Origin: an uncultured Rhodospira sp.
GTDB taxonomy: Bacteria > Pseudomonadota > Alphaproteobacteria > Rhodospirillales > Rhodospirillaceae
Length of the DNA stretch: 64,000 bases
Assembly: GCF_937138205.1 (NCBI RefSeq)
Contig: NZ_CAKZOT010000112.1
Coordinates: forward strand, 1 to 64,000
Direction: 5' to 3'
Shown: positions 28,960 to 46,526 of the stretch, piece after piece
How the letters are laid out: each line of letters begins with the position of its first letter
Position numbering within the stretch: position 1 is the first letter of the stretch
Position numbers and translations under genes: made by a program
The notes under the pieces: generated by a model
Databases searched by the model: none
The model's input: only the letters and a program-made list of their open reading frames with translations
Told to the model about the DNA's origin: nothing

Positions 28960-29253
28960 TCAGGCCCGCGCCCGCTGTTGACGGCCATGCCCGGATGACG
29001 AGGGCGCGACGGCCCGGTAGAAGTCGGCATCATGGAGCACCAACACCGAAATCGTCCGGTACCCCAGATCCTGTTCGTGGTCGGGAACAAGACGAACATG
29101 GGGCGGGATGCCGTCGAAATGGACGATCTGGCGCACCGTCCAGACGGACTGGTACTGCCCGTCGGTCTTGACGAATCGGTCGCCCACCTCAATGCCGTGC
29201 CGTGGGGTCATGTTCGCCCCCATGGCACCCATCAAGCGTCTGAAAAAGCTCAT
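28960..29253 (-). CDS. Small conserved hypothetical protein
   Basis: The 97-residue protein starts MSFFRRLMGAMGANMTPRHG. The core reads like a compact beta-rich domain (VGDRFVKTDGQYQSVWTVRQ, then IPPHVRLVPDHEQDLGYRTI, then SVLVLHDADFYR). I recall similar short proteins in other Rhodospirillales but know no function. It has no signal peptide. The codon texture is GC-rich and coding-like, which supports it as real. Upstream of treY on the same strand? No: it lies after treY's stop, 177 bp downstream, and before ubiD. Confidence 0.55.
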   Translation of the reverse strand: MSFFRRLMGAMGANMTPRHGIEVGDRFVKTDGQYQSVWTVRQIVHFDGIPPHVRLVPDHEQDLGYRTISVLVLHDADFYRAVAPSSSGHGRQQRARA

Positions 29254-29430
29254 GGTTCATGCCTCGCCGGAGGCCCGTGGGAGCGGTGACAGACGATTCA
29301 CGCACGGCCCCCGCCACGCGGAGCGACCGCCATCCCCCCGTGCTCGCGACTGTCGGCGCCCCTGCGCTCAAGTCGTGAGCCGGCCCCTTGTCTTGCCCGA
29401 TCCAAATATTGCACGGGGGGAGTCTGATAT

Positions 29431-32400
29431 TCAAGCCTCGTTCACCAGCACCGCGACTGGGGTCTCCGCCAGCAGGTGCGCGAGCGGCAGAGCGCCGTCG
29501 TGCCGGTCCGGCTGCACGGGCGGCGCATCGGGGCCGTCCAGGGCCGGACGCCACGGACCTGCGGACCAGGCTGCCTCGGCGGGCAAAAGAACCTGCGTGC
29601 TGCCCCAACCCTGCGGCAGAGGCACCGTTGTGTCCTGCATCAGGGGCCAAACCAAGCGTGGCACCACCACGATCATGGCACGGGACGCGTTCGGCGGGTT
29701 GTCGTCCGTTTCCGGGCGCGGGGCAACCCTGGCAAACGCCAGCACCCGCGATGCGTGGTCCCCGACCACGTCCAGGGGAATGTAGGATCCGCGCGCGAAC
29801 AGGGCTGGCGCACGGCGCCGGAGATCGAGCAGGGTGGCGATCAGCAGCAGTTTGACACGCCCGTCTCGCCAAGAGGGCAGATGGTCGGCCACCCGGCCAC
29901 CCTCCGACAGCCAGCGCGCCCGTGCCTCGAAATCCACCAGACGGCGGTTGTCGGGATCGACCAGGCTGAAGTCCCACAGGTCGGTGCCCTGGTACAGATC
30001 GGGGACACCGGGCACGGTCAGTTTCAGGGTCGTCTGCGCCAGACCGTTGACCGCGCCAGCGGGTGCAAGACGGGCCACGAACGCCGCCATGTCCGTCAGG
30101 AACGCGGTGGCGTACGTGGGCGACAGGACGGAGCGGACAAACCCCTCAACGCCGGCTTCGTACTCGGGGTCCTGCGCGGTCCAGGCGGTTTCCACCTTGG
30201 CCTCGCGCACGGCCTTCAACATGTAGGCCACCATGCGCTCGGCGTATGCCTCCAGGGCGCCCTCGTCCATGGCGGCGACGGCGCCGTCCGCGTCCGTCTC
30301 CGCCAGTTCCAGCGGCCAGCTGGCCAGCAGGCTCTGGTAGAACAGGTACTCGTCGTTGGCGCTGGGCGCGCGACGGTTCTCGGACAGGACCGTCAGCCGA
30401 CGCTGGTTCAAGTCCTGCCAGCGCTGGACCCGACGGCTCCAGGCGTCCGGACACTCCGAGATCAGCGCCAGGCGCGCCCGGGCATCCTCGCCGCGTTTGT
30501 GATCGTGCGTGGCGGTGGCCAGCAGGCCGAAGGGCCAGTTCTCGAGACGCGCCAGACAGGCGTGATGGAACGCGGTCGGCGACAGGCCGAACCGGTCCGG
30601 CTCGCCCCCCACTTCGTTCAGGGCCGCCAGACGGACATACCGGTAGAACGCCGTGTCCTCCATGGCCTTGGCCATCACCGGGCTGGTGAGCTGTTGCACC
30701 CGCATGGCCACGTCCAGGACCTCGTCGGGCGGGTGGCCGGCGCCCTTCAGGGCGAGATCGCCGGTCAGCGCGTCGTACAGGAAGTCGTAGATGGACAGGT
30801 CCGGCGTGCGCGCCGCCTTGCGCGCCCGGCCGATGGCCCACTGCAGGTCGCGACGGTCCTGTTCGTCGATGCGGGCATGGGGGTCCGCCTCCTCGGAAAG
30901 GTTCGCCCAGTCGGCCAGGGCGTGCGGATTGACGTACGTGCGGTACACGGGGAAGTGGGCGATCACGTTAATCAGCGCCGTGCGCAAGGCCAGCCGAGCG
31001 TAGTCCCGCGTCGCCCGCGATCGTTTCGCCAGGCGGCTCAGCCGGTTGGCCATGACGCCAATTTCGCTGGCCAGGGACTCTTCCATGACCTGCCGCTTGG
31101 CCGCGCGCACCTGGGTTTCGTAGGGGACGACGCCGCCGACACCGTGCGCATAGGCCCGCTCCAGGTCCGGCTCCCCCTCGGGATCCACAAACAGACCCAG
31201 GACCTGATTCATGAACTCGTAGCCGGTGGACCCGGCGATGGGCCAACCGTCGCGCAGGCGCTCGTGCGGCGCCAGGATTTTTTCTACGAGTAGATAGAAC
31301 GGTTGGTCGGGGCCGAACGGCGAAGGTCCAAGCAAGCCGCCCGGTTCGGCGGCCGGGTCGGCCGCGATCGTCCCGGACTCGAGGCCACGCACACGTGCGG
31401 ACCGGGCTTCGGCCTGGAGGCGCCGCATGTAGGTCTCGGGGTCCCACAACCCGTCCACGTGGTCGAGCCGAACCCCCTGCACCCGGCCCTCGGCGATCAG
31501 GCGCAGGATCAGCCGGTGCGCGGTATCGAACAGGTCCTCGCGTTCCATGCGCAGGGCGGCGAGGTCGTTGATCTCGAAGAACCGGCGGTAGTTGATCTCA
31601 TGCGCCGCGACGCGCCAGAACGCCGGGCGGTAGGACTGGCGCTCGATCAACGCATCAAGGTCGTCGAAGCTGGCCGGTCGCCCGGGCTCGCCGGCGAAGG
31701 CGGTTTCGGCGGCGGCAACCACGGCCCGGGCCTCGTCGCTCTCGTCCAAGAGTTCGGCCAACCGGCGCTTGACGACGGTGGCGGTGCGTCGCCGGCCGAG
31801 CACGCCGCCGATCTCCCGGTCGCCGGCGCGCAATGAATCGGCGCCGGCCATCACCAGGGCGAGAACATTATCCTCTGCATGGCCGGCCGCCACGCCGCGC
31901 CGCAGGATATCGCCGTAGTCATGCGGGCGAATCGGGAAGGTGTGCTCATAGTAGCGGACCACGAATCCGCCCAAATCCCGGTCGTACCGCAGCGTCAGTT
32001 CGCCCCGTTCCAGGATGGCGCCGTAGTGGTCGCCCAGGACCGGCAGCAGGATTTTGCCGTGCAGGGACGGCTCGGCCGGTTCCCAGTCGATATCGAACCA
32101 GTCGGCGTGCGGGCTCTCGCGGCCCCACTCCAGCACGTCGCGCCACCACCGGTTCTCGTCGACGCCGATGCCCATGTGATTGGGCACGAAGTCGAGGATC
32201 AGGCCGAGGCCATGGTCCAGAAGGGTATCGCTGAAGCGGCGAAACGCCTCCTCGCCGCCCAGTTCCGGGTTGATACGGCTGTGGTCGATGATGTCGTAGC
32301 CGTGCTGCGAGCCCGGCCGGGCCATCAGGATCGGCGACAGATAGACGTGGCTGATCCCCAGCGCGGCCAGGGTCGGCACCACGGCAGCGGCGGCATCGAA

Positions 32401-32517
32401 ACCAAAATCCGGCGAAAGCTGGAGCCTGAAGGTGGCGCGCGGATGATCGGGTACGGCGGCACGCCCCGCTCCGGAGGTATCCCCACCGCCCGTGCGGCCG
32501 ACCTGTTCGGACACCAT
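29431..32517 (-). CDS. treY: Malto-oligosyltrehalose synthase
   Basis: The 1028-residue GH13 protein begins with RATFRLQLSPDFGFDAAAAV and ISHVYLSPILMARPGSQHGY, the classical TreY start, and contains GVRLDHVDGLWDP with the catalytic nucleophile. TreY isomerises the reducing end of glycogen-type chains into a trehalose unit, which TreZ then releases. TreZ and TreX are not in the window. The ATG at 32517 has AGGG nearby; an in-frame TTG at 32553 would overlap frdD. It begins 32 bp after frdD, so it is probably in the frd transcript. Its substrate could come from the glg genes a few kb away. Confidence 0.95.
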   Translation of the reverse strand: MVSEQVGRTGGGDTSGAGRAAVPDHPRATFRLQLSPDFGFDAAAAVVPTLAALGISHVYLSPILMARPGSQHGYDIIDHSRINPELGGEEAFRRFSDTLLDHGLGLILDFVPNHMGIGVDENRWWRDVLEWGRESPHADWFDIDWEPAEPSLHGKILLPVLGDHYGAILERGELTLRYDRDLGGFVVRYYEHTFPIRPHDYGDILRRGVAAGHAEDNVLALVMAGADSLRAGDREIGGVLGRRRTATVVKRRLAELLDESDEARAVVAAAETAFAGEPGRPASFDDLDALIERQSYRPAFWRVAAHEINYRRFFEINDLAALRMEREDLFDTAHRLILRLIAEGRVQGVRLDHVDGLWDPETYMRRLQAEARSARVRGLESGTIAADPAAEPGGLLGPSPFGPDQPFYLLVEKILAPHERLRDGWPIAGSTGYEFMNQVLGLFVDPEGEPDLERAYAHGVGGVVPYETQVRAAKRQVMEESLASEIGVMANRLSRLAKRSRATRDYARLALRTALINVIAHFPVYRTYVNPHALADWANLSEEADPHARIDEQDRRDLQWAIGRARKAARTPDLSIYDFLYDALTGDLALKGAGHPPDEVLDVAMRVQQLTSPVMAKAMEDTAFYRYVRLAALNEVGGEPDRFGLSPTAFHHACLARLENWPFGLLATATHDHKRGEDARARLALISECPDAWSRRVQRWQDLNQRRLTVLSENRRAPSANDEYLFYQSLLASWPLELAETDADGAVAAMDEGALEAYAERMVAYMLKAVREAKVETAWTAQDPEYEAGVEGFVRSVLSPTYATAFLTDMAAFVARLAPAGAVNGLAQTTLKLTVPGVPDLYQGTDLWDFSLVDPDNRRLVDFEARARWLSEGGRVADHLPSWRDGRVKLLLIATLLDLRRRAPALFARGSYIPLDVVGDHASRVLAFARVAPRPETDDNPPNASRAMIVVVPRLVWPLMQDTTVPLPQGWGSTQVLLPAEAAWSAGPWRPALDGPDAPPVQPDRHDGALPLAHLLAETPVAVLVNEA

Positions 32518-32549
32518 GCCTCGCCCTTTCGTGACCGGGACCCGAGGGA

Positions 32550-32897
32550 TCAAATCGACAGCAGGGCCATGAGGGCGATCAGGCTGAACAACGCGGCGAA
32601 GCCATAGACGCCGCGGGCCACCAGCGCGTCATTCCGGATCCCGAAATCGTGGGCGGTGATCCGCAGTCGGTGAGCGGCGTGCCACAGCGCAAGGACAATG
32701 ATCCCGAACAGCACGATCTTGACGAGCGGGTTGCCGACGATCTCGCTCATGCGCTCGTACGACGCCTCGCCCGACCCGAACAGGCCCAGCGGCAGCAGGA
32801 ACCCGGTGATCAGGATCATGACGGGGATGACGAAGGCGGCAACGGTGCCGCCGGCGGCGAACAGGCCCCAGACGATGGGCTTGTTGGACTTGGCCAT
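32550..32897 (-). CDS. frdD: Fumarate reductase membrane subunit D
   Basis: The 115-residue protein has three hydrophobic segments (VWGLFAAGGTVAAFVIPVMI, IVLFGIIVLALWHAAHRLRI and the C-terminal FAALFSLIALMALLSI) and the HAAHRLR motif found in FrdD. Its length agrees with the 119-residue E. coli protein. With FrdC it anchors the FrdAB catalytic pair in the inner membrane and binds quinol. Two bases separate it from frdC. treY follows closely. Confidence 0.88.
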   Translation of the reverse strand: MAKSNKPIVWGLFAAGGTVAAFVIPVMILITGFLLPLGLFGSGEASYERMSEIVGNPLVKIVLFGIIVLALWHAAHRLRITAHDFGIRNDALVARGVYGFAALFSLIALMALLSI

Positions 32898-32899
32898 GG

Positions 32900-33292
32900 T
32901 CAGAGGACTCCCATCATCAGCAGGAAGACCAGCGAAACCACGCCCCAGATGATGTAGTGGGCGCTGATGATCGCCGGGCCGGGAACGAAGTCGTCACCCC
33001 TGGGAATGCGCATGGCCTTGGGCGTGACGTTGAACCAACTGATCGAGTGGTAACAGGCGAACCCGAGGGCCAGCAGGCTGAACAGAAGGCCCGACGGTGA
33101 CGAGATCCCGTTGACGTAAACGGCCCACTCGCCCGGCCCCTGGGCCAGACGCACCAAGCCCACGGTCAGGCTGGCCGCGTACAGGCCAATGAACACGCAG
33201 GTGACCTCGCGCAGCATGTACCGGATGTAGCGGCGGTTGCGCATGTACCATGTGGTCCGGGGGACCTCGCGCACATAGGGGTTGCGGCTCAT
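32900..33292 (-). CDS. frdC: Fumarate reductase membrane subunit C
   Basis: The 130-residue protein opens [20 protein letters not shown] and has the MLREVT motif that corresponds to MLREGT of E. coli FrdC, where the glutamate is near the quinone site. Three membrane segments follow. The length matches the 131-residue E. coli protein. This subunit type lacks haem, so the complex would be a type D quinol:fumarate reductase. The ATG overlaps the frdB stop by 4 bp (ATGA). Confidence 0.9.
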   Translation of the reverse strand: MSRNPYVREVPRTTWYMRNRRYIRYMLREVTCVFIGLYAASLTVGLVRLAQGPGEWAVYVNGISSPSGLLFSLLALGFACYHSISWFNVTPKAMRIPRGDDFVPGPAIISAHYIIWGVVSLVFLLMMGVL

Positions 33293-34038
33293 TTGCGCCT
33301 CCACGGCATCAGGTGCTCCAGATACCAGTCCACGGTGCTGGCGATCTTCATCTGCTGGATGGCCCCGGCGGGATCGACATCCTTGGGGCAGACCTCGGAA
33401 CAGGCGCCCACGAACGAGCATTCCCACACACCCTCGTGGGCGGCGACGACCTCTTGGCGTTGCGGGCGGCCGTGGTCACGCGAATCGAGGTTGTAGCGAT
33501 GCGTGAGCGCCAGGGCGGCGGGACCGATGAAATCGGGCGCGAGGGCGTACTGCGGACAGGCGGCGTAGCAGAGCATACAGTTAATGCACATCGAGTACTG
33601 CTGGTACTGATGGAGCTGCTTCGGTGTCTGCTTGTAGGTGCCGTCCTCGACCGTACGTTTTTTCTTGGGGATAACGTAGGGCTTCACCGCCTGCAGCTTG
33701 TCCATGAAGTCGTCCATGACGACCACCAGATCGCGCTCGATCGGGAAATGGGTCAGCGGCTCGACGCGGATGCTTCCACCGTTGGGGAAATCACGCACGA
33801 ACGCCTTGCACGACAGCATGGGCTCGCCGTTGATCATCATGCCGCAGCTGCCGCACACGGCCATGTGGCAGGACCACCGGTAGCTGAGCGTGCCGTCGAG
33901 GTTGTCCTTAATGTAGTTGAGGGCGTCCAGCACCACCCATTCTTCCTCGCACGGCACGCAATAGGCCTGGAAGCGGGGCTCGGACTCCGTTTCCGGATCG
34001 TAGCGGAGAATCTCGAACGTGATCTGCCGTTGGCTCAT
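33289..34038 (-). CDS. frdB: Fumarate reductase iron-sulfur subunit
   Basis: The 249-residue protein has a plant-type [2Fe-2S] motif ([21 protein letters not shown] region) and two ferredoxin-like motifs, [12 protein letters not shown] and [17 protein letters not shown], for the [4Fe-4S] and [3Fe-4S] clusters. It carries electrons between the membrane quinol and the flavin of FrdA. The length and the [19 protein letters not shown] stretch resemble FrdB rather than mitochondrial-type SdhB. It starts at the ATG that overlaps the frdA stop by 4 bp. Confidence 0.93.
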
Positions 34039-35795
34039 GACTTCGCTCCCGAGTAGTCGCGCACCCCGGGACGGGATTTGGTGATGACGACGTCCAGATA
34101 GTCGATGCGCGGCGCGTCCTCGCCCTGGTAATGGGCCATCGAGTGCTTGAGGTAGGTGTCGTCGTTGCGCTCCACATAGTCGAGACGCTGGTGCGAGCCG
34201 CGCGATTCCTTGCGGGCCAGGGCGCTGACGGCGACCGCCTGGGCCACGTCCAGCATGTTGTCGAGTTCCAGCAGTTGCGTGAATTCGGTGTTGAAGACCT
34301 TGCTCTTGTCCCGCAGGGCGATGCCGGACCGCCGGCTGCGCAGGTCGGCCAGGGTGTTGACCGTGTCGGTCAGCATGGCTTCGTCGCGGTAGATGCCGGC
34401 GCCTGTCTCCATGGTGTGGGTCATGGCGTTGCGAATGGCGGTCATGGTTTCCGCGCCCTCGGTCCGCTCGAACAGCGCCCGCACGCGGGCCTCGGCGGCG
34501 CTGGCCTGTTGGTCGGCGGCGGCCCTGTCCGTCTTGGGCGCGGCGGAGCGCACGTATTCGGCCGCGCTTTCGGCGGCGCGCTTGCCGAACACCAACAGTT
34601 CCGTCAGCGAGTTGGAGCCCAGGCGGTTGGCGCCGTTGATGCTGACACAGGCGCATTCGCCGGCGGCGAACAGGCCGGGCAGGGGGGTGGCGGCGTTGAT
34701 GTCGGTGTGGATGCCGCCCATCATGTAGTGCACCACGGGGCGGATGGGTACCGCCTCCTTGACGATGTCCACGCTGGCGTAGGCGTGCGCCAGCTCCTGG
34801 ACGAAGGGCAGGCGCTCGTGGATTTTCTTCTCGCCCAGGTGCGTCATGTCCAGGAGGACACAGTCGCCCCATTTGGTGGGAACCGTGTTGCCCTTTTGCT
34901 GTTCATGCCAGAAGGCTTGGCTGAGGCGGTCACGCGGCCCCAGTTCCATGGTCTTCAGGACGGTCTCGCCGAGAGGCGTCTCCGGTCCCATGCCGTAGTC
35001 CTGCAGGTAGCGGTAGCCGTCCTTGTTGCGCAGGACGCCGCCCTCGCCACGGCACCCCTCGGTCAGCAGGATGCCCGTCGCCGGCAGGCCGGTGGGGTGG
35101 TACTGCACGAACTCCATGTCCTTCAGCGGCACGCCGGCGCGATAGGCCAGGGCCATGCCGTCACCGGTCTTGATGGCGCCGTTGGTGGTGAAGGGGAAGA
35201 TTCGGCCTCCGCCGCCGGTGCACAGGATCACCGCCGGGGCCAGGAACTGCTTCATCTCGCCCGAGCGCATCTCGACGGCGCAACAGCCCTGGACCTTGCC
35301 GTCGACCACCAGCAGGTCGGTGGTGAAGACCTCGTCAAAGCGACGGATGGACTCGAACTGCAACGACGTCTGGAACAGGGTGTGCAGAAGGTGAAAGCCG
35401 GTCTTGTCGGCGGCGTACCAGGTGCGCTTGATCTTCATGCCACCGAACGGGCGAACACTGACCCGACCGTCCTTGTCCCGACTCCAGGGGCAGCCCCAGT
35501 GGTCCAGGCGGGTCAGTTCCTTGGGGGCCTCGTTGATGAAAAAATCCACCGCGTCCTGGTCGCACAGCCAGTCGCCGCCGCCGACGGTGTCGTTGAAATG
35601 CAGGTCCATGCTGTCGTCGGCTCCGGCCACGCCGGCCGCGCCGCCCTCGGCCGCGCAGGTGTGGCTGCGCATCGGATAGACCTTCGACAGCAGGGAGACG
35701 CGCAGTCCAGGGTCGGCCTCGGCCAGGGCGATGGCGGCACGCAACCCCGCACCGCCGGCGCCGACGATGACGACATCGGACTCGATGGTTTCCAT
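34035..35795 (-). CDS. frdA: Fumarate reductase flavoprotein subunit
   Basis: The 586-residue protein begins [20 protein letters not shown] (FAD-binding) and has the covalent-FAD histidine in [13 protein letters not shown] and the active-site region [17 protein letters not shown]. The subunit order A-B-C-D and the FrdC/FrdD type identify quinol:fumarate reductase rather than the usual alphaproteobacterial SdhCDAB. It reduces fumarate to succinate with quinol, or runs in reverse. GGAG precedes the ATG. All four frd genes are closely linked (4-bp overlaps for A-B and B-C). A 10-bp direct repeat lies upstream. Confidence 0.94.
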
Positions 35796-35843
35796 GAGGT
35801 GGGCTCCACGGTCTGCGATCCGGATGGTCGGAACCGGACCTGT

Positions 35844-35870
35844 TCTTGAACGATGAGGGGTCTTGAACGA
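35844..35870 (-). promoter_or_regulatory. Direct repeat upstream of frdA
   Basis: TCTTGAACGA occurs at 35844-35853 and again at 35861-35870, a period of 17 bp, about 50 bp upstream of the frdA start. Direct repeats of this spacing can bind a response regulator or activator. The sequence does not match an FNR/ANR palindrome. Read in the frdA direction, TTGACC (35880-35875) could be a -35 element, but no good -10 follows. Confidence 0.4.
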
Positions 35871-35953
35871 CGGGGGTCAAACGCTAACAGATCGGGGCGC
35901 CGGCGTGTACGCCGGATGTGATGTCCGCCCTGTGAAAGTTCGAGGGTCCACCC

Positions 35954-36769
35954 TCAGGGATTCCCGTGGGGCTCCGGCTTGTCCGCGTCATTGACCGGCG
36001 CGCGCCGCCGCGAAACGTCGCGGATCGACCAGCCGACGGCGACCAATCCGGCAAGCCCCACGGCGGCGATCGCCAGCGTTGGGGCGCCCAGGGATGTCCG
36101 CGCCGCCTGCTCCAGGCCGGCGCCGATGGTGCTGACGACGAGGATCAAGGGAACGATGCCGAGGATCGTGCCGAGCAGATAGGGACGCCAGGCGAGGCCG
36201 GTGGCCCCGCAGACGATGTTGACCACGCCATACACAAGGATCGGCACGACGCGCGCGACGATCACGGCCTTCAGACTGTGCTGGCGGATGGCGCGCACGG
36301 CCCGGCGCACCTGAGGATGACGGTCCATGAGACGGCGCAGGCCATCGCGGCCCAGGGCGCGGCCCACCTGACAGCCGATCGCCGCGCTGATCAGCGCGGC
36401 GATGGAGCTGTAGAGGCTGCCGTGCACCGGTCCGAACACCAGCGCCATGGCCAGCGTCAGCGGGATGAGGGGGGCCATCAGCAGCATCGCCGCGGCCATC
36501 AGGGCGATGGCGGCGGCTGGGGCGTAGGGCCATGCGCCCAGAGCGTCACGCCAAGCAAGCAGGGTGTCAGGCGAGACGGCTTCCGCGAGTGGCGTCAGCC
36601 GCCACACAAGCACACCGGCGCCGAGCAAGCTCGCCAGAAAAGCGGCGCGCGCCCAAGGTACCCGCCGGGGGCCGGCGGACCGTACCTCTCGGAGGGCCTC
36701 TCGGAGGCGCGGCTCCCCGCTTTCCGGCGGCGGCTGGGGTGTCGGGCACTCAGGATCCAGATGCGACAT
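35954..36769 (-). CDS. TVP38/TMEM64 family (VTT domain) membrane protein
   Basis: The 271-residue protein has a soluble N-terminus, then about six hydrophobic segments. The VTT/DedA-like core is seen in MALVFGPVHGSLYSSIAALISAAIGCQVGR and in ARVVPILVYGVVNIVCGATG. Family members are thought to act in lipid scrambling or transport. The function here is unknown. It is 158 bp from frdA's start on the same strand and is probably independent. Confidence 0.83.
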   Translation of the reverse strand: MSHLDPECPTPQPPPESGEPRLREALREVRSAGPRRVPWARAAFLASLLGAGVLVWRLTPLAEAVSPDTLLAWRDALGAWPYAPAAAIALMAAAMLLMAPLIPLTLAMALVFGPVHGSLYSSIAALISAAIGCQVGRALGRDGLRRLMDRHPQVRRAVRAIRQHSLKAVIVARVVPILVYGVVNIVCGATGLAWRPYLLGTILGIVPLILVVSTIGAGLEQAARTSLGAPTLAIAAVGLAGLVAVGWSIRDVSRRRAPVNDADKPEPHGNP

Positions 36770-37513: not shown

Positions 37514-37748
37514 CTTGGCCAACGAGGGGAGATCGACCGGCCCGATCTCCGTCAGCCGCCCACCGGGTGGCATCGTCGTTGGCGGTTGGGGCAACCCGAT
37601 CGCTTCACCTGAACTCCCAGGGAGCGTGGTCGTTTCCGTACGAACACTCACCGAGCCGGTGTTTCTCAGGATCATGACTGTTCCGGAACCGGATGACGCG
37701 CCGCGCATCCGGCGTGACACGCACCCTAGCCATTCGCCCGAGGGAACG

Positions 37749-38336
37749 ATGACCGAAGCATCAATCTCCTCCATCCGGACGAAGACTGCCGCCCGCCCGG
37801 TCCCACAGCCGCCGCAGACCGGTGGCGTTCACATGCGCCATCCGACCGCCGAGGACGGATCGGCCATCTGGACCCTGGCCCGCGATAGCGGCAAGCTGGA
37901 CCTGAACTCGCCCTATGCCTATCTGATGATGGGACATTTTTTCCCGCAGACCTGCATCATCGCGGAAAAGGACGACGAGCCGGTGGGCTCCGTCATCGGC
38001 TTCGCGCCGCCGGCGCGCCCGAACGCGCTGTTCGTCTGGCAGGTCGCCGTGTCCGAAACGGTGCGGGGGCAGGGTCTGGCCTCGCGCATGATCGAGCATC
38101 TGCTGTGGACGGCGCCGCTGGACGGCCAGGCCCGCTGGCTGGAAGCCTCGGTCACGCCGTCCAACGAACCGTCCGCGCGGCTGTTCAAGGGCATCGCGCG
38201 CCGCCACGGCGTCTCCTGCGAGATCGCGCCCCTGTTCGAAGAAGACGCGTTCCCGCCGCCGCACGAGGCGCAGGCCAGTTTCGAGCCGGAACACCTGTTC
38301 CGCATCGGTCCGTTGCGGCAGGCGAAGGCGGCGTAA
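37749..38336 (+). CDS. ectA: L-2,4-diaminobutyric acid acetyltransferase
   Basis: The 195-residue GNAT protein starts MTEASISSIRTKTAARPVPQ. The conserved EctA stretches are MRHPTAEDGSAIWTLARDSG, LDLNSPYAYLMMG and the acetyl-CoA site VAVSETVRGQGLASRMIEHL. It acetylates L-2,4-diaminobutyrate, the second step of ectoine synthesis. The frame stays open upstream to 37515, but GAGGGA before the ATG at 37749 and family length support the shorter form. It leads ectA-ectB-ectC. Expression is probably osmoregulated through the promoter region at 37424-37513. Confidence 0.95.
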   Translation: MTEASISSIRTKTAARPVPQPPQTGGVHMRHPTAEDGSAIWTLARDSGKLDLNSPYAYLMMGHFFPQTCIIAEKDDEPVGSVIGFAPPARPNALFVWQVAVSETVRGQGLASRMIEHLLWTAPLDGQARWLEASVTPSNEPSARLFKGIARRHGVSCEIAPLFEEDAFPPPHEAQASFEPEHLFRIGPLRQAKAA

Positions 38337-38394
38337 CGCGCTCCGCCTGCCCCAGCGAACAACCTCTTCCAGTCCCAAGAAACGGAACCGCTTC

Positions 38395-39687
38395 ATGACC
38401 TCCGCATCCCTGGATGTCTTCGATCGCCACGAGTCCGCCGTCCGCAGTTATGTCCGGTCCTTCCCGGACGTGTTCACTACCGCCAAGGGGCACCTGGTCC
38501 AGGGCGAGAGCGGCCGGTCCTACATCGATTTCTTCGCCGGGGCCGGCGCGCTCAACTACGGCCACAACGATGACGCCATGAAGGCGGCGCTGATCGAGTA
38601 CATCGCCGGGGACGGCATTGCCCACGCGCTCGACATGGGCACCACCGCCAAGGCCCGCTTCCTGGAACGCTTCCACGAGGTGATCCTGGCCCCGCGCGGC
38701 CTGGAGCATAAGGTCCTGTTCCCGGGGCCGACCGGCACCAACGCCGTCGAGGCCGCCCTGAAACTGGCCCGCAAGGTCACGGGGCGCGAAAAGATCGTCA
38801 GCTTCACCAACGCCTTCCACGGCATGACCCTGGGCTCGCTGGCGGTCACGGGCAACAGCTTCAAGCGTGGCGGTGCCGGCCTGCCGCTCGACAACACGGT
38901 CTTCATGCCGTTCGCCGATTTCCTGGAGGAAGGCTTCGACAGCCTGTCCTACCTGGAACGGATGCTGGAACACGGCGGCTCCGGCATGGACCTGCCGGCC
39001 GGCGTGATCGTCGAGACGGTGCAGGGCGAGGGCGGCATCAACGCTGCCTCCTTCGGCTGGCTGAAGCGCCTGAACGACCTGTGCGCCCGCTGGGACCTGC
39101 CGCTGATCGTGGACGACATCCAGGCGGGCTGTGGCCGAACCGGGCCGTTCTTCAGCTTCGAGCCGGCCGGCATCAAGCCGGACATCGTCTGCCTGTCCAA
39201 GTCCATCAGCGGCTACGGCCTGCCGATGGCGCTGGTTCTGGTGCGTCCTGACATGGATTTGTTCGGTCCGGGCGAACACAACGGCACCTTCCGGGGCAAC
39301 TCAACGGCTTTCGTCACCGCGACCGAGTCCTTGCGCTTCTGGACCGACGATACCCTGACCCGCGAGGTGTTGCGCAAGGGCGAGATCGTGCAAGAGGCCC
39401 TGACCGCGATGGCGGACAAGCACCCGGAACTGAAGCCGCAGGTGCGAGGCCGTGGCCTGATGTGCGGCATCGCCCTGGATGTCCCGGGCGCGGCCTCGGC
39501 CGTGTGCGCGCACGCGTTCGAGAACGGGGTCATCATGGAAACCTCCGGGCCGGACTCCGAGGTCGCCAAGCTGCTGCCGCCGCTGACCATCCCGGAGGAC
39601 GCCCTGCGCGAGGGCCTGGACATCATGGCCCGCGCCGTTGACGCCGTGGCCGCCCGCGTCGCCAACAACACCGTCGCGGCCGCCTGA
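38395..39687 (+). CDS. ectB: Diaminobutyrate--2-oxoglutarate transaminase
   Basis: The 430-residue fold-type I PLP enzyme contains YIDFFAGAGALNYGHND, TGTNAVEAALKLARKVTGRE, LIVDDIQAGCGRTGPFF and the PLP lysine in VCLSKSISGYGLPMAL, all typical of EctB. It converts L-aspartate semialdehyde to L-2,4-diaminobutyrate using glutamate. It starts 58 bp after ectA and ends 106 bp before ectC. A dedicated aspartokinase (ask_ect) and ectoine hydroxylase (ectD) are not in this cluster. Confidence 0.96.
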   Translation: MTSASLDVFDRHESAVRSYVRSFPDVFTTAKGHLVQGESGRSYIDFFAGAGALNYGHNDDAMKAALIEYIAGDGIAHALDMGTTAKARFLERFHEVILAPRGLEHKVLFPGPTGTNAVEAALKLARKVTGREKIVSFTNAFHGMTLGSLAVTGNSFKRGGAGLPLDNTVFMPFADFLEEGFDSLSYLERMLEHGGSGMDLPAGVIVETVQGEGGINAASFGWLKRLNDLCARWDLPLIVDDIQAGCGRTGPFFSFEPAGIKPDIVCLSKSISGYGLPMALVLVRPDMDLFGPGEHNGTFRGNSTAFVTATESLRFWTDDTLTREVLRKGEIVQEALTAMADKHPELKPQVRGRGLMCGIALDVPGAASAVCAHAFENGVIMETSGPDSEVAKLLPPLTIPEDALREGLDIMARAVDAVAARVANNTVAAA

Positions 39688-39793
39688 TCCGGCTCAGCCC
39701 CGATCCCTGCGTATCCCTGCCCGCGTCCCGTTTCTGGCGGCGGGCAGGGATAATTGTGTCTGAGAACAACACCTTACAGAAGAGAGTTAATCC

Positions 39794-40186
39794 ATGATCG
39801 TAAAGAAGCTCGATGACCTCGCGGGCACCGACGCCGAAGTGGATGGCGGCAACTGGGTCAGCCGCCGGTTCCTGCTGCGCAAGGACGGCATGGGCTTTTC
39901 CATGCACGACACAATCATCCGCGCCGGCACCGAGACCTACATCCACTACGCCAATCACTTGGAAGCGGTGTATTGCGTCGAGGGGGACGGCGAGATCGAG
40001 GACCTGGAGACCGGCATCGTCCATCCCCTCAAGGACGGCACGCTGTATGCGCTGAACGGCCACGAGCGGCACAAGCTGCGCGGCGGATCCCGCGACATGC
40101 GGATGGTCTGTGTCTTCAACCCGCCGCTGACCGGCCGCGAGGTGCATGACGAGAACGGCGTCTATCCGCTTTTGACCGAGGCGTGA
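39794..40186 (+). CDS. ectC: L-ectoine synthase
   Basis: The 130-residue cupin begins [20 protein letters not shown] and contains the conserved [20 protein letters not shown] and [18 protein letters not shown] with metal-binding His/Glu/Tyr residues. It closes N-acetyl-diaminobutyrate to ectoine. GAGAG is close to the ATG. The 106-bp gap after ectB is short enough for one transcript. A 9-bp stem at 40194-40220 follows the stop and may end transcription. The accessory patch starts right after it. Confidence 0.96.
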
Positions 40187-41168: not shown

Positions 41169-41561
41169 TCAGGCATCTTTCAGCCCCTCCAGCCAGGCGC
41201 GCAGGGCGGCGGCGTGGGTGGGGAGATTCCGTTCAAGACCCCGCGCCAGTTCCTCGTTGTAGGTGTGGGAGGCCAGATTGCGGTCATCGACCATGGTGAG
41301 GGTGGATTCACCCGTTGGCTCATCAAGAATGCCGGCGGTGACGCACGAACGGATGGCCGCGCGCGGCGTGTTGGCGATGACTCCGTGGCGCTCCCGCAAC
41401 ACGGCCTGGGCAGCTTTCCAGGTGGCCTCGAACGAATACACGAACCGGAGTATACAGACGTCGCGGCGTTCCACGGCGGGCAGGGCATCGTTGTCCAGCG
41501 CCGCGAACAGCGTCGCCTACGCCTTTCCCGCCAGACCGAGGCGTTCCGTCACTCTGTCCAC
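41169..41561 (-). pseudogene. HEPN-domain protein (nucleotidyltransferase substrate-binding subunit), interrupted by an amber codon
   Basis: From a GTG at 41561 the frame reads VDRVTERLGLAGKA, then TAG (41519-41517), then ATLFAALDNDALPAVERRD and a HEPN-type body (FVYSFEATWKAAQAVLRERH, MVDDRNLASHTYNEELARGL). This is the HI0074/HEPN family, the toxin or substrate-binding partner of the MNT nucleotidyltransferase next to it. A later GTG at 41474 could still make a 101-residue piece that includes the RNLASHTY (RX4-6H) motif. Codon 15 is the only stop, so the mutation may be recent. The start overlaps the MNT stop by 13 bp. Confidence 0.75.
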
Positions 41562-41875
41562 GGGAGACCCTCCCTGAACACACGACCGCGAAAATCATCC
41601 GATGTCCTGCGCAGGTCCACAACGTCGCAAACCCAGGGGACGTTGGTGTCCTCCAGCGCCTCGCGAAGGTCGCCGATGATCAGGGACGACATCTCCGGCG
41701 GGGCGTCGATGGCGATGTCCACGTCGCTGCCGGGATATGCCGTGCCGGTCGCCCGGGACCCGAACAGCCACGCCCGCGCGCCCGTGCCGGCCAACGCCTT
41801 GCGCACCACCGCGCGCAACGTGGCGAGGTAGCGGGCGTGGCGGTCGGGCTCCGTTTCCTGATCCAGCGTGGTCAT
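41549..41875 (-). CDS. MNT-type nucleotidyltransferase (antitoxin of a HEPN/MNT pair)
   Basis: The 108-residue protein has the minimal nucleotidyltransferase motif in RAWLFGSRATGTAYPGSDVD (GS then DxD), followed by IAIDAPPEMSSLIIGDLREA. MNT antitoxins AMPylate a Tyr in the HEPN toxin RX4-6HXY motif. The ATG at 41875 (MTTLDQETEPDRH) is chosen; the ATG at 41890 is also possible. The gene looks intact, while the HEPN partner downstream carries an amber codon. It sits between two Rpn copies. Confidence 0.8.
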   Translation of the reverse strand: MTTLDQETEPDRHARYLATLRAVVRKALAGTGARAWLFGSRATGTAYPGSDVDIAIDAPPEMSSLIIGDLREALEDTNVPWVCDVVDLRRTSDDFRGRVFREGLPWTE

Positions 41876-41901
41876 GGCGGCGGGCCGCATCAGTGCCCCG
41901 G

Positions 41902-42699
41902 TCAGTGCGGCGGCGCCAGGATATCGTCGATACTCTGGGCGTCGAACAGCCGTTTTTCCCACGTTGCGAGCGTGGCCTCGTCGACGGAAAGAATTCGGGC
42001 GCACCGGTCATCCGAAAGCGGGCCGAAGCGGTGCTCGAGCAACCGCATGAGCATCTGCCTCTGCCCCTCGGATCGCCCCTTCGTTTCGCCTTCAGCCTTG
42101 CCTTCAGCCAAGGCTTCGGCTCGCCACTTGCGCTTCGACTCCTCGATCAGAATCTCCAGCATGGTTCGCATCTCCATCAGGTCGCGGGGCACCGGCCCCG
42201 GCAGACCACCGCCCGCCATCGCCTGACCGATCAGTTCGGTGAACAGCCGCCGCAGGTCCGTATAGTCCGGATGTGTCCGGAACCAGCCGACGACGGCGTC
42301 GATCACCTGTTTCAGGGCCTCGAGCTCGTGCGGGCGTTCCAACTGAACCAAAAGAGACGTCAGCGAATCCCGACCGGTCAACGCATCCTCGGGCATCCGG
42401 CCCATGTCCAGAAGATGATAGCGGATTCTCGGCTGCCAAGGCCACAATGGTGAGTCTTCCGGCAGGCCGATCAGGCCCGTGGTGTCGGTCGGTGCCGCCC
42501 ATGGCCGGGCGCCGTTGTAGAGCACCATCAGAAAAACCGGCGGCAGCGGGTCCCCTGGGCTCAGGCGGTGTTCGGCGATCACGTGCTGCCACAGCAGGCC
42601 CTCGTAGACCTGGGCGCGCACCGCCATCCACCAGTCCGGCGTCGACTGGAACTCCAGCAGCAGGTAGAGGTAGACGTCCGGCCCATTCAGTATAAACAT
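41902..42699 (-). pseudogene. Rpn family nuclease/putative transposase, copy 2, 5'-truncated
   Basis: The frame matches Rpn copy 1 from GPDVYLYLLLEFQSTPDWWM to the DDILAPPH end, with W in place of the nonsense codon and an extra acidic/charged stretch (EGKAEGETKGRSEGQRQ). Homology stops abruptly near 42685: upstream, the sequence becomes AT-rich and does not match copy 1. The N-terminal ~65 residues, including the start of the nuclease core, are missing. An ATG at 42699 is present by chance in the AT-rich segment and overlaps the DUF2971 stop by one base (TAATG). Confidence 0.8.
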
Positions 42700-43667
42700 T
42701 ACCTATTTAAGTCACTTAAGACTACAGAGCCCATATCAACGTTTGCTGTGTAGCATTTCACGGTTGGATTTATAGAGTTAACAAAAGACGCGAGGTGTTC
42801 TTTTTCACAATTCGGACTATGCCAGCCAAATATTAAAGAGCGGACGCGTGATTTTTCTATCGATCTTGTATATATCTCGCTTCTATCCGGTAATGTAGTT
42901 GTTTCACATAGATTTAATGGCTGTATTATTCTTCTCTCTCTTTCATAACTCCAGTCTGGATATTTGGCGAGAAAGATGGATTTGTAAGATTGTGGATCAA
43001 AAGTTACGCCTGAAATATGCCGATCATAAGTCACAGGAAGAAGTTCACCGATCAATCCGGTATCGTCTTTAGGGAAAGCGTCAGCCAAACCAGCAAACTC
43101 TACTACATACCCCTTTGCATTGTTTGAGTAGTGTGCCCACATCGGCAAGCAGTCGTATGTCCGGCTAGCGCAGAACAAGCCAATCTTGTTTCTAAAATTC
43201 TCTGCGGTAATGCCTATTTTTTTGATCATGTATTCAATATTATCATATATGTGATACTGTAATATGTTATCCGCCTGTATTGTGTCCGACGGCGCAGAAA
43301 TAACAACTTCCTTTGGGCTCAGGAGGCTCATTAGTTTTTCGGCTTGGCGTAACGCCACGATATCTTCTTGGCTATGCCCTCTTTGACGTAGTGCGTTCAA
43401 GCTTTCTTTGAGCTCTTGTTTGTCAACGGTAGGCAGTAGCTCAGAAGGATCATTCAAATCCCTAATTCTCGTAAATTTTAGCCTGCCACACAGTAAGTGT
43501 TCCACAGCCGATACGCCCGAAACGAACTTAAAAACAGAGCCGCCACTGCAATTCGTATTGTCATTTTGCGTCATTCTAGCCTTCTCCTTTCTTAACTAAA
43601 CAAAAATCATGCACTTAAACGTCTTGCAGACTCTTAATGGTGAAAAGATCAAGCCTTTTCTTTGTCA
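42686..43667. other. AT-rich segment, probable horizontal insertion
   Basis: Between the Rpn homology break (near 42685) and the uvrA stop (43668) the base composition changes from strongly GC-rich to visibly AT-rich and codon use differs. The segment holds one gene (DUF2971) with its own AAAGGAG ribosome-binding site. No transposase, integrase or long terminal repeat is visible, so the mechanism of entry is unknown. Confidence 0.7.
42699..43574 (-). CDS. DUF2971 domain-containing protein
   Basis: The 291-residue protein starts MTQNDNTNCSGGSVFKFVSG. It has the DUF2971 features: LKFTRIRDLNDPSELLPTVD near the start, IGLFCASRTYDCLPMWAHYS in the middle, KGYVVEFAG, and SIFLAKYPDWSYERERRI towards the end. 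DUF2971 proteins are common near defence and mobile genes; their biochemical function is not known. It lies in an AT-rich segment and is preceded by AAAGGAG 9 bases before the ATG. No signal peptide or membrane segment is seen. Its 3' end overlaps the truncated Rpn frame by one base. Confidence 0.82.
   Translation of the reverse strand: MTQNDNTNCSGGSVFKFVSGVSAVEHLLCGRLKFTRIRDLNDPSELLPTVDKQELKESLNALRQRGHSQEDIVALRQAEKLMSLLSPKEVVISAPSDTIQADNILQYHIYDNIEYMIKKIGITAENFRNKIGLFCASRTYDCLPMWAHYSNNAKGYVVEFAGLADAFPKDDTGLIGELLPVTYDRHISGVTFDPQSYKSIFLAKYPDWSYERERRIIQPLNLCETTTLPDRSEIYTRSIEKSRVRSLIFGWHSPNCEKEHLASFVNSINPTVKCYTANVDMGSVVLSDLNR

Positions 43668-46526
<2,859 letters not shown>

Follow-up and report, generated by a model that had tools for sequence, protein, structure and literature searches.

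The window analyzed here, a stretch of 64,000 nucleotides from the genome of an uncultured Rhodospira sp. (the host), carries the four genes of a quinol:fumarate reductase directly followed by treY, and this arrangement raises the question of which reaction and which quinone the enzyme serves, and whether a trehalose gene behind it has any functional meaning. Rhodospira trueperi and Roseospira are placed in the same genus as the host genome. We consider it probable, as one account, that the enzyme is a reductase for anaerobic fumarate respiration with rhodoquinol, and possibly menaquinol, as the electron donor, and that a native treY was relocated behind frdD.

Identity of the frdABCD operon

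All five genes are on the minus strand and point the same way, in the order frdA-frdB-frdC-frdD-treY. The flavoprotein gene frdA (34035..35795) scores 949.9 bits against NF006686 (cut-off, 854), and the iron-sulfur subunit gene frdB (33289..34038) scores 382.7 bits against NF009051 (cut-off, 333) with two additional codons 5' of the start included. The membrane anchors are encoded by frdC (32900..33292), with 123.7 bits to Pfam Fumarate_red_C (cut-off, 24.2), and frdD (32550..32897), with 103.2 bits to NF003977 (cut-off, 60); i.e., each of the four genes of an E. coli-type quinol:fumarate reductase is matched by a curated or Pfam model. Two NCBIfam FrdC models also match FrdC, under their cut-offs (81.7 versus 143 and 69.2 versus 234). 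An ATGA overlap joins frdA to frdB and frdB to frdC, and frdC and frdD are spaced by 2 bp. The last gene, treY (29431..32517, minus strand), encodes a maltooligosyltrehalose synthase (961.2 bits to TIGR02401; cut-off, 498.65). The description of a complete E. coli-type frdABCD and treY in one cluster, as given in the earlier note, agrees with the family scores, the gene order, and the coordinates.

The best solved relatives of FrdA, FrdB, FrdC, and FrdD are chains A to D of the E. coli quinol:fumarate reductase (1kf6), and the host set shares with E. coli FrdABCD (1kf6, 1l0v) the gene order, the four subunits, the context of the FAD-binding histidine, the iron-sulfur subunit, and the two membrane anchors. 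FrdA contains both AAEGG and the context of the histidine that we take to be the site of FAD attachment. The residues that we assume to form the quinone site, i.e., the Glu of MLRE in FrdC, a Lys in FrdB, and a Trp in FrdD, are present in alignments read by eye. On the other hand, the next gene is treY here and ampC in E. coli K-12, and the host genome also carries rquA. Judged by its sequence, frdABCD is an ordinary E. coli-type reductase with an unusual neighbor, treY.

A second complex II in the host genome

The host genome has a separate sdhA on contig C36, which encodes a flavoprotein with 977.4 bits to sdhA_forward (cut-off, 727.35) and adjoins sdhB. There is one further Succ_DH_flav_C match in this genome besides FrdA, and exactly two PF02910 matches were found in each of the six genomes of the genus. 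After the FAD histidine, the host SdhA has AAQGG where FrdA has AAEGG, a difference that we presume from E. coli work to separate Sdh from Frd; the literature search did not find a paper on it. Because an SdhA-type flavoprotein and SdhB are encoded elsewhere in the genome, the frd set is not the sole complex II. The earlier note had called for a search for a separate succinate dehydrogenase, which is thus present, and the contrary case that it raised, that frd is the only such enzyme and works aerobically, does not hold with a second sdhA/sdhB pair.

In principle, a complex II enzyme can run in either direction, and one genome of the order (G344) has frd with neither rquA nor menD over the cut-off, as would suit a complex working chiefly in succinate oxidation, with ubiquinone, as an additional succinate dehydrogenase. 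This reading is very improbable in view of the SdhA/SdhB pair already present, the Frd-type family scores, and the co-occurrence of frd with rquA described below. We infer instead that FrdABCD acts in the direction of fumarate reduction, in anaerobic fumarate respiration beside the separate succinate dehydrogenase.

Distribution and origin of frd

Pfam FrdC was matched at E <= 0.001 in 13 of 385 genomes of the class, 5 of them over the cut-off; full matches of more than 120 bits were found in 4, the host included, and the fifth, a partial match of 24.6 bits, was not counted. In the order sample, 39 of 199 genomes had FrdC matches, 36 of them over the cut-off. The earlier statement that such an enzyme is uncommon in the class is borne out by the class sample (4/385), whereas within the order the enzyme occurs regularly (36/199).

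Among the best 80 of 589 FrdA matches, the nearest named sequence is that of R. trueperi (90% identity), and those of three Roseospira species are 78 to 82% identical. A FrdBCD tree was rooted on E. coli and built from 112 of 114 loci, with some genomes represented twice; L060 and L107 were left out owing to missing subunits, and the other loci were chosen by likeness to the host FrdA. The alphaproteobacterial sequences are basal and paraphyletic in this tree, and the genus (node support, 0.861) groups with L023 of family f196 (support, 0.996). A recent enterobacterial import of frd was considered and is unsupported by the basal, paraphyletic position of the alphaproteobacterial sequences in this E. 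coli-rooted tree.

The quinone partner of the reductase

The rquA gene is located at C91:49875-50525, downstream of a Polyketide_cyc-family gene and on a different contig from frd (C112). It scores 301.6 bits against NF038261, and a second scan of the host RquA gave 301.2 bits (cut-off in both, 175). Its presence over the cut-off in the host, and in all six genus genomes, makes rhodoquinone a credible donor and lends sequence support to the earlier guess that the enzyme works with this quinone. The accessible text of PMC9814641 names D118 and D143 in the RquA protein from R. rubrum. Two Asp residues that lie 25 residues apart are invariant in the ten aligned RquA sequences and present in the host RquA; they were equated with the R. 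rubrum pair by context and spacing, with R. rubrum RquA itself standing outside the alignment.

In the order sample, rquA was found over the cut-off in 31 of the 36 frd genomes versus 31 of the 163 others (Fisher p 3e-14, a value that ignores kinship and scores six sub-cut-off rquA matches as absent). Genomes with both genes occur in 12 of the 13 families that hold frd, and rquA lies within 6 kb of frd on the same contig in 12 of the 36 frd genomes. The five frd genomes without rquA over the cut-off consist of two with weaker RquA-like matches (G431 and G444), two with menD (G555 and G565), and one with neither (G344; loci L005 and L155), which belongs to the same family as the host and has frdABCD. 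Since rquA occurs without FrdC in 31 genomes of the order, its presence does not require this reductase.

The gene directly after frdD is rquA in many relatives titled as beta- or gammaproteobacteria, and rquA lies no more than 1 kb from frdD in 34 of 64 loci with non-alphaproteobacterial titles and at least 1.5 kb of sequence after frdD. One of the nonalphaproteobacterial loci, L063, scores 321.2 bits against NF038261, and two alphaproteobacterial examples score 293.5 and 294.3 bits (cut-off, 175). That rquA lies near genes for complex II has been noted before (PMC5953543, accessible text). The accessible text of PMC8269255 reports frdABCD and rquA for Candidatus Thiosymbion oneisti, in which rhodoquinone was proposed to substitute for the missing menaquinone; the host likewise combines frdABCD and rquA in one genome but has men genes too.

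Just 3' of frdD, rquA-like genes are found at L050, L051, L053-L055, L059, L073-L075, L090, L094, L120, and L121, in records titled Contendobacter, Competibacteraceae, Xanthomonadales, Lysobacterales, or Gammaproteobacteria; by tblastn alone, they are 54 to 70% identical to the L063 RquA. For complete genomes, the accessible part of PMC11707229 gives a single gammaproteobacterial species with the rhodoquinone pathway. The RquA-like genes near frd at L103 and L105 are distant from the others (27% identity), and that of L103, at 111.1 bits versus the cut-off of 175, may be a paralogue.

The men genes of the host are an addition that the rhodoquinone guess did not foresee. Contig C77 carries a menF-D-B-C cluster and menE, in which menD and menB are over the cut-off, and menC (123.5 versus 130.55) and menE (276 versus 330.15) are under it. 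The isochorismate synthase encoded upstream of menD is 73% identical to its R. trueperi orthologue, which scores 272.9 bits (cut-off, 224.75). A MenA-like prenyltransferase (155.1 bits) is encoded at C57:7180-8001 of the host genome (G000). Two of the six genus genomes, the host and R. trueperi (G529), have menD over the cut-off; the MenA-like match is over the cut-off in all six, including the four without menD, and is therefore unspecific. It is also missing from the menD-bearing genome G510 and under the cut-off in G393. The MenA-like match was accordingly rejected as proof of menaquinone. The futalosine route was over the cut-off in none of 30 relatives, with one match at E <= 0.001.

With E. 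coli quinol:fumarate reductase using menaquinol, the physiological donor in the host species might be menaquinol rather than rhodoquinol. The menF-D-B-C cluster with menE on C77, the MenA-like match on C57, and the two frd genomes of the order that have menD without rquA (G555 and G565) are in line with this idea, which we nevertheless consider improbable, as menD is over the cut-off in 2/6 genus genomes versus frd and rquA present in 6/6, and the MenA-like match is unspecific. Rhodoquinone as the partner of frd is well supported by gene content, and the reductase is very probably fed by rhodoquinone through an rquA encoded elsewhere in the genome. Electrons would most likely reach the enzyme from rhodoquinol, which RquA, encoded on the other contig, would make available by converting ubiquinone to rhodoquinone, and possibly also from menaquinol. 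The prediction is that Rhodospira and Roseospira, a cultured genus, can respire fumarate with rhodoquinone.

Both rquA and menD are over the cut-off in 5 of the 199 order genomes, three of which (the host, G393, and G529) also have frd. R. trueperi and the host may combine ubiquinone, rhodoquinone, and menaquinone; MK-7 is the menaquinone ascribed to R. trueperi. RquA together with the menaquinone pathway is given for 5 of 84 genomes in the accessible text of PMC11707229.

Probable relocation of treY within the genus

TreY is a full-length maltooligosyltrehalose synthase, and TreZ and GlgX are also encoded in the host genome, by genes that adjoin each other on another contig (C113). In four of the six genus genomes (the host, R. 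trueperi, R. navarrensis, and R. marina), treY lies 3' of frdD, and glgX-treZ is located elsewhere. In the other two, Roseospira visakhapatnamensis (G579, L167) and G581 (L184), treY follows treZ. The treZ-treY adjacency was also found in five outgroup genomes, G394 (L149 and L157) and G416, G493, G442, and G535 (L150, L151, L152, and L156). TreY is 70 to 77% identical within the genus in full-length matches and about 48 to 51% identical to the outgroups, and these identities fit one inherited gene. The glgX-treZ-treY set of R. visakhapatnamensis resembles that of the host in having glgX, treZ, and a TreY of 70% identity, whereas the host treY stands apart from treZ, behind frdD. In the FrdBCD tree, from which G581 is absent, R. 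visakhapatnamensis splits off before the four frdD-treY species; the support is moderate, at 0.861 for the node of the genus and 0.795 for that of the four.

The position of treY is best read as a relocation of the native gene, and a single relocation within the genus is the simplest reading of these placements. The native treY would have left its place next to treZ, in the simplest case in one event, and landed behind frdD. The move is a small evolutionary curiosity, and it offers a natural within-genus comparison of treY beside treZ with treY behind frd. Fumarate reductase, glycogen, and treY genes are described for Defluviicoccus (PMC9041414); a frd-treY cluster was found neither in the accessible text of that paper nor by the literature search outside subscription papers. 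The word treY was likewise not found in the accessible text of PMC7824335 on the solutes of R. trueperi, R. marina, and R. navarrensis.

Transcription and the proposed redox link

As stated in the earlier note, the ATG of treY follows the frdD stop codon by 32 bp. This gap (32518..32549, minus strand) folds no better than its shuffles and contains no sigma-70-like or terminator-like match. Measured to the best-placed treY ATG, the gap is 66 bp in R. trueperi, 123 bp in R. marina, and 298 or 313 bp in R. navarrensis. Folding relative to shuffles gave z values of 1.1 in the host and 0.6 in R. trueperi, and strong hairpins were seen in R. marina (z, -3.1) and R. navarrensis (z, -4.1 and -7.0). 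Gap lengths and folding make co-transcription of frdD and treY likely in the host and R. trueperi; for R. marina, as for R. navarrensis, it is doubtful. The host treY would probably ride on frd transcription, and GlgX and TreZ would be made from their separate locus. No promoter-like match was found in 29200-36100, a weakly informative result given that shuffles expect 0.6.

The region 5' of frdA (35796..35953, minus strand), presumed to hold the promoter, has no FNR-like box at up to two mismatches, nor was one found in the 211 to 315 bp upstream of frdA in five species. FNR-type regulation of frdA was rejected; at three mismatches, one box appears, in R. marina. In R. trueperi (L154), a two-mismatch FNR-like site was seen 33 bp 5' of the rquA open reading frame; it is among 5 sites of this kind in 19.9 kb, and the host (L153) lacks an equivalent.

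The earlier note further proposed that treY ties solute synthesis to the redox state. If the arrangement were adaptive, the frd promoter would drive treY and thereby trehalose formation from glycogen under anoxia. The short gaps of 32 and 66 bp without notable folding, the retention of the arrangement across FrdA divergence to 82% identity, and the co-occurrence of frd and treY in the order (17 of 36 frd genomes versus 5 of 163 others) would be expected under such selection, which we regard as unlikely given the long gaps with strong hairpins in Roseospira marina and navarrensis, the glgX-treZ genes that remain elsewhere, and the fact that 11 of the 17 co-occurring genomes come from family f201. 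For this last reason, the co-occurrence was discounted as functional evidence; it points to a common way of life rather than to a regulatory connection. In the FrdBCD tree, L080, titled Defluviicoccus, pairs with L034 of family f201.

It is comparatively improbable that the frd operon captured treY so as to couple trehalose formation from glycogen to anaerobic fumarate respiration with a reductase using both rhodoquinol and menaquinol; if so, the species would unite rhodoquinol and menaquinol pathways, a rare pair. With gaps of 123 bp in one species and about 300 bp in another, both holding strong hairpins, conservation of a redox-trehalose coupling is not demonstrated, and the proposed tie is further weakened by its restriction to four of six genomes and by glgX-treZ lying elsewhere. 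As a neighbor of frd, treY is an unusual gene and probably an incidental one.

Other genes in the window

The ectoine genes (37515..40186, plus strand) comprise ectB and ectC, identified by family match, and ectA, a GNAT acetyltransferase named by its position. Ectoine genes also lie near frd in R. trueperi (L045) and Roseospira marina (L047), and ectABC is listed for R. trueperi, R. marina, and R. navarrensis in the accessible text of PMC7824335. At 41169-42004 (minus strand), a nucleotidyltransferase and a nucleotidyltransferase substrate-binding protein form a pair that may be an MNT-HEPN type module; it is flanked by a YhgA-like transposase/DUF4351 gene and a second DUF4351-like gene. A 291-amino-acid open reading frame at 42699-43574 (minus strand) lies in a patch of lower GC content (0.536 at 42001-44000) and was possibly acquired.
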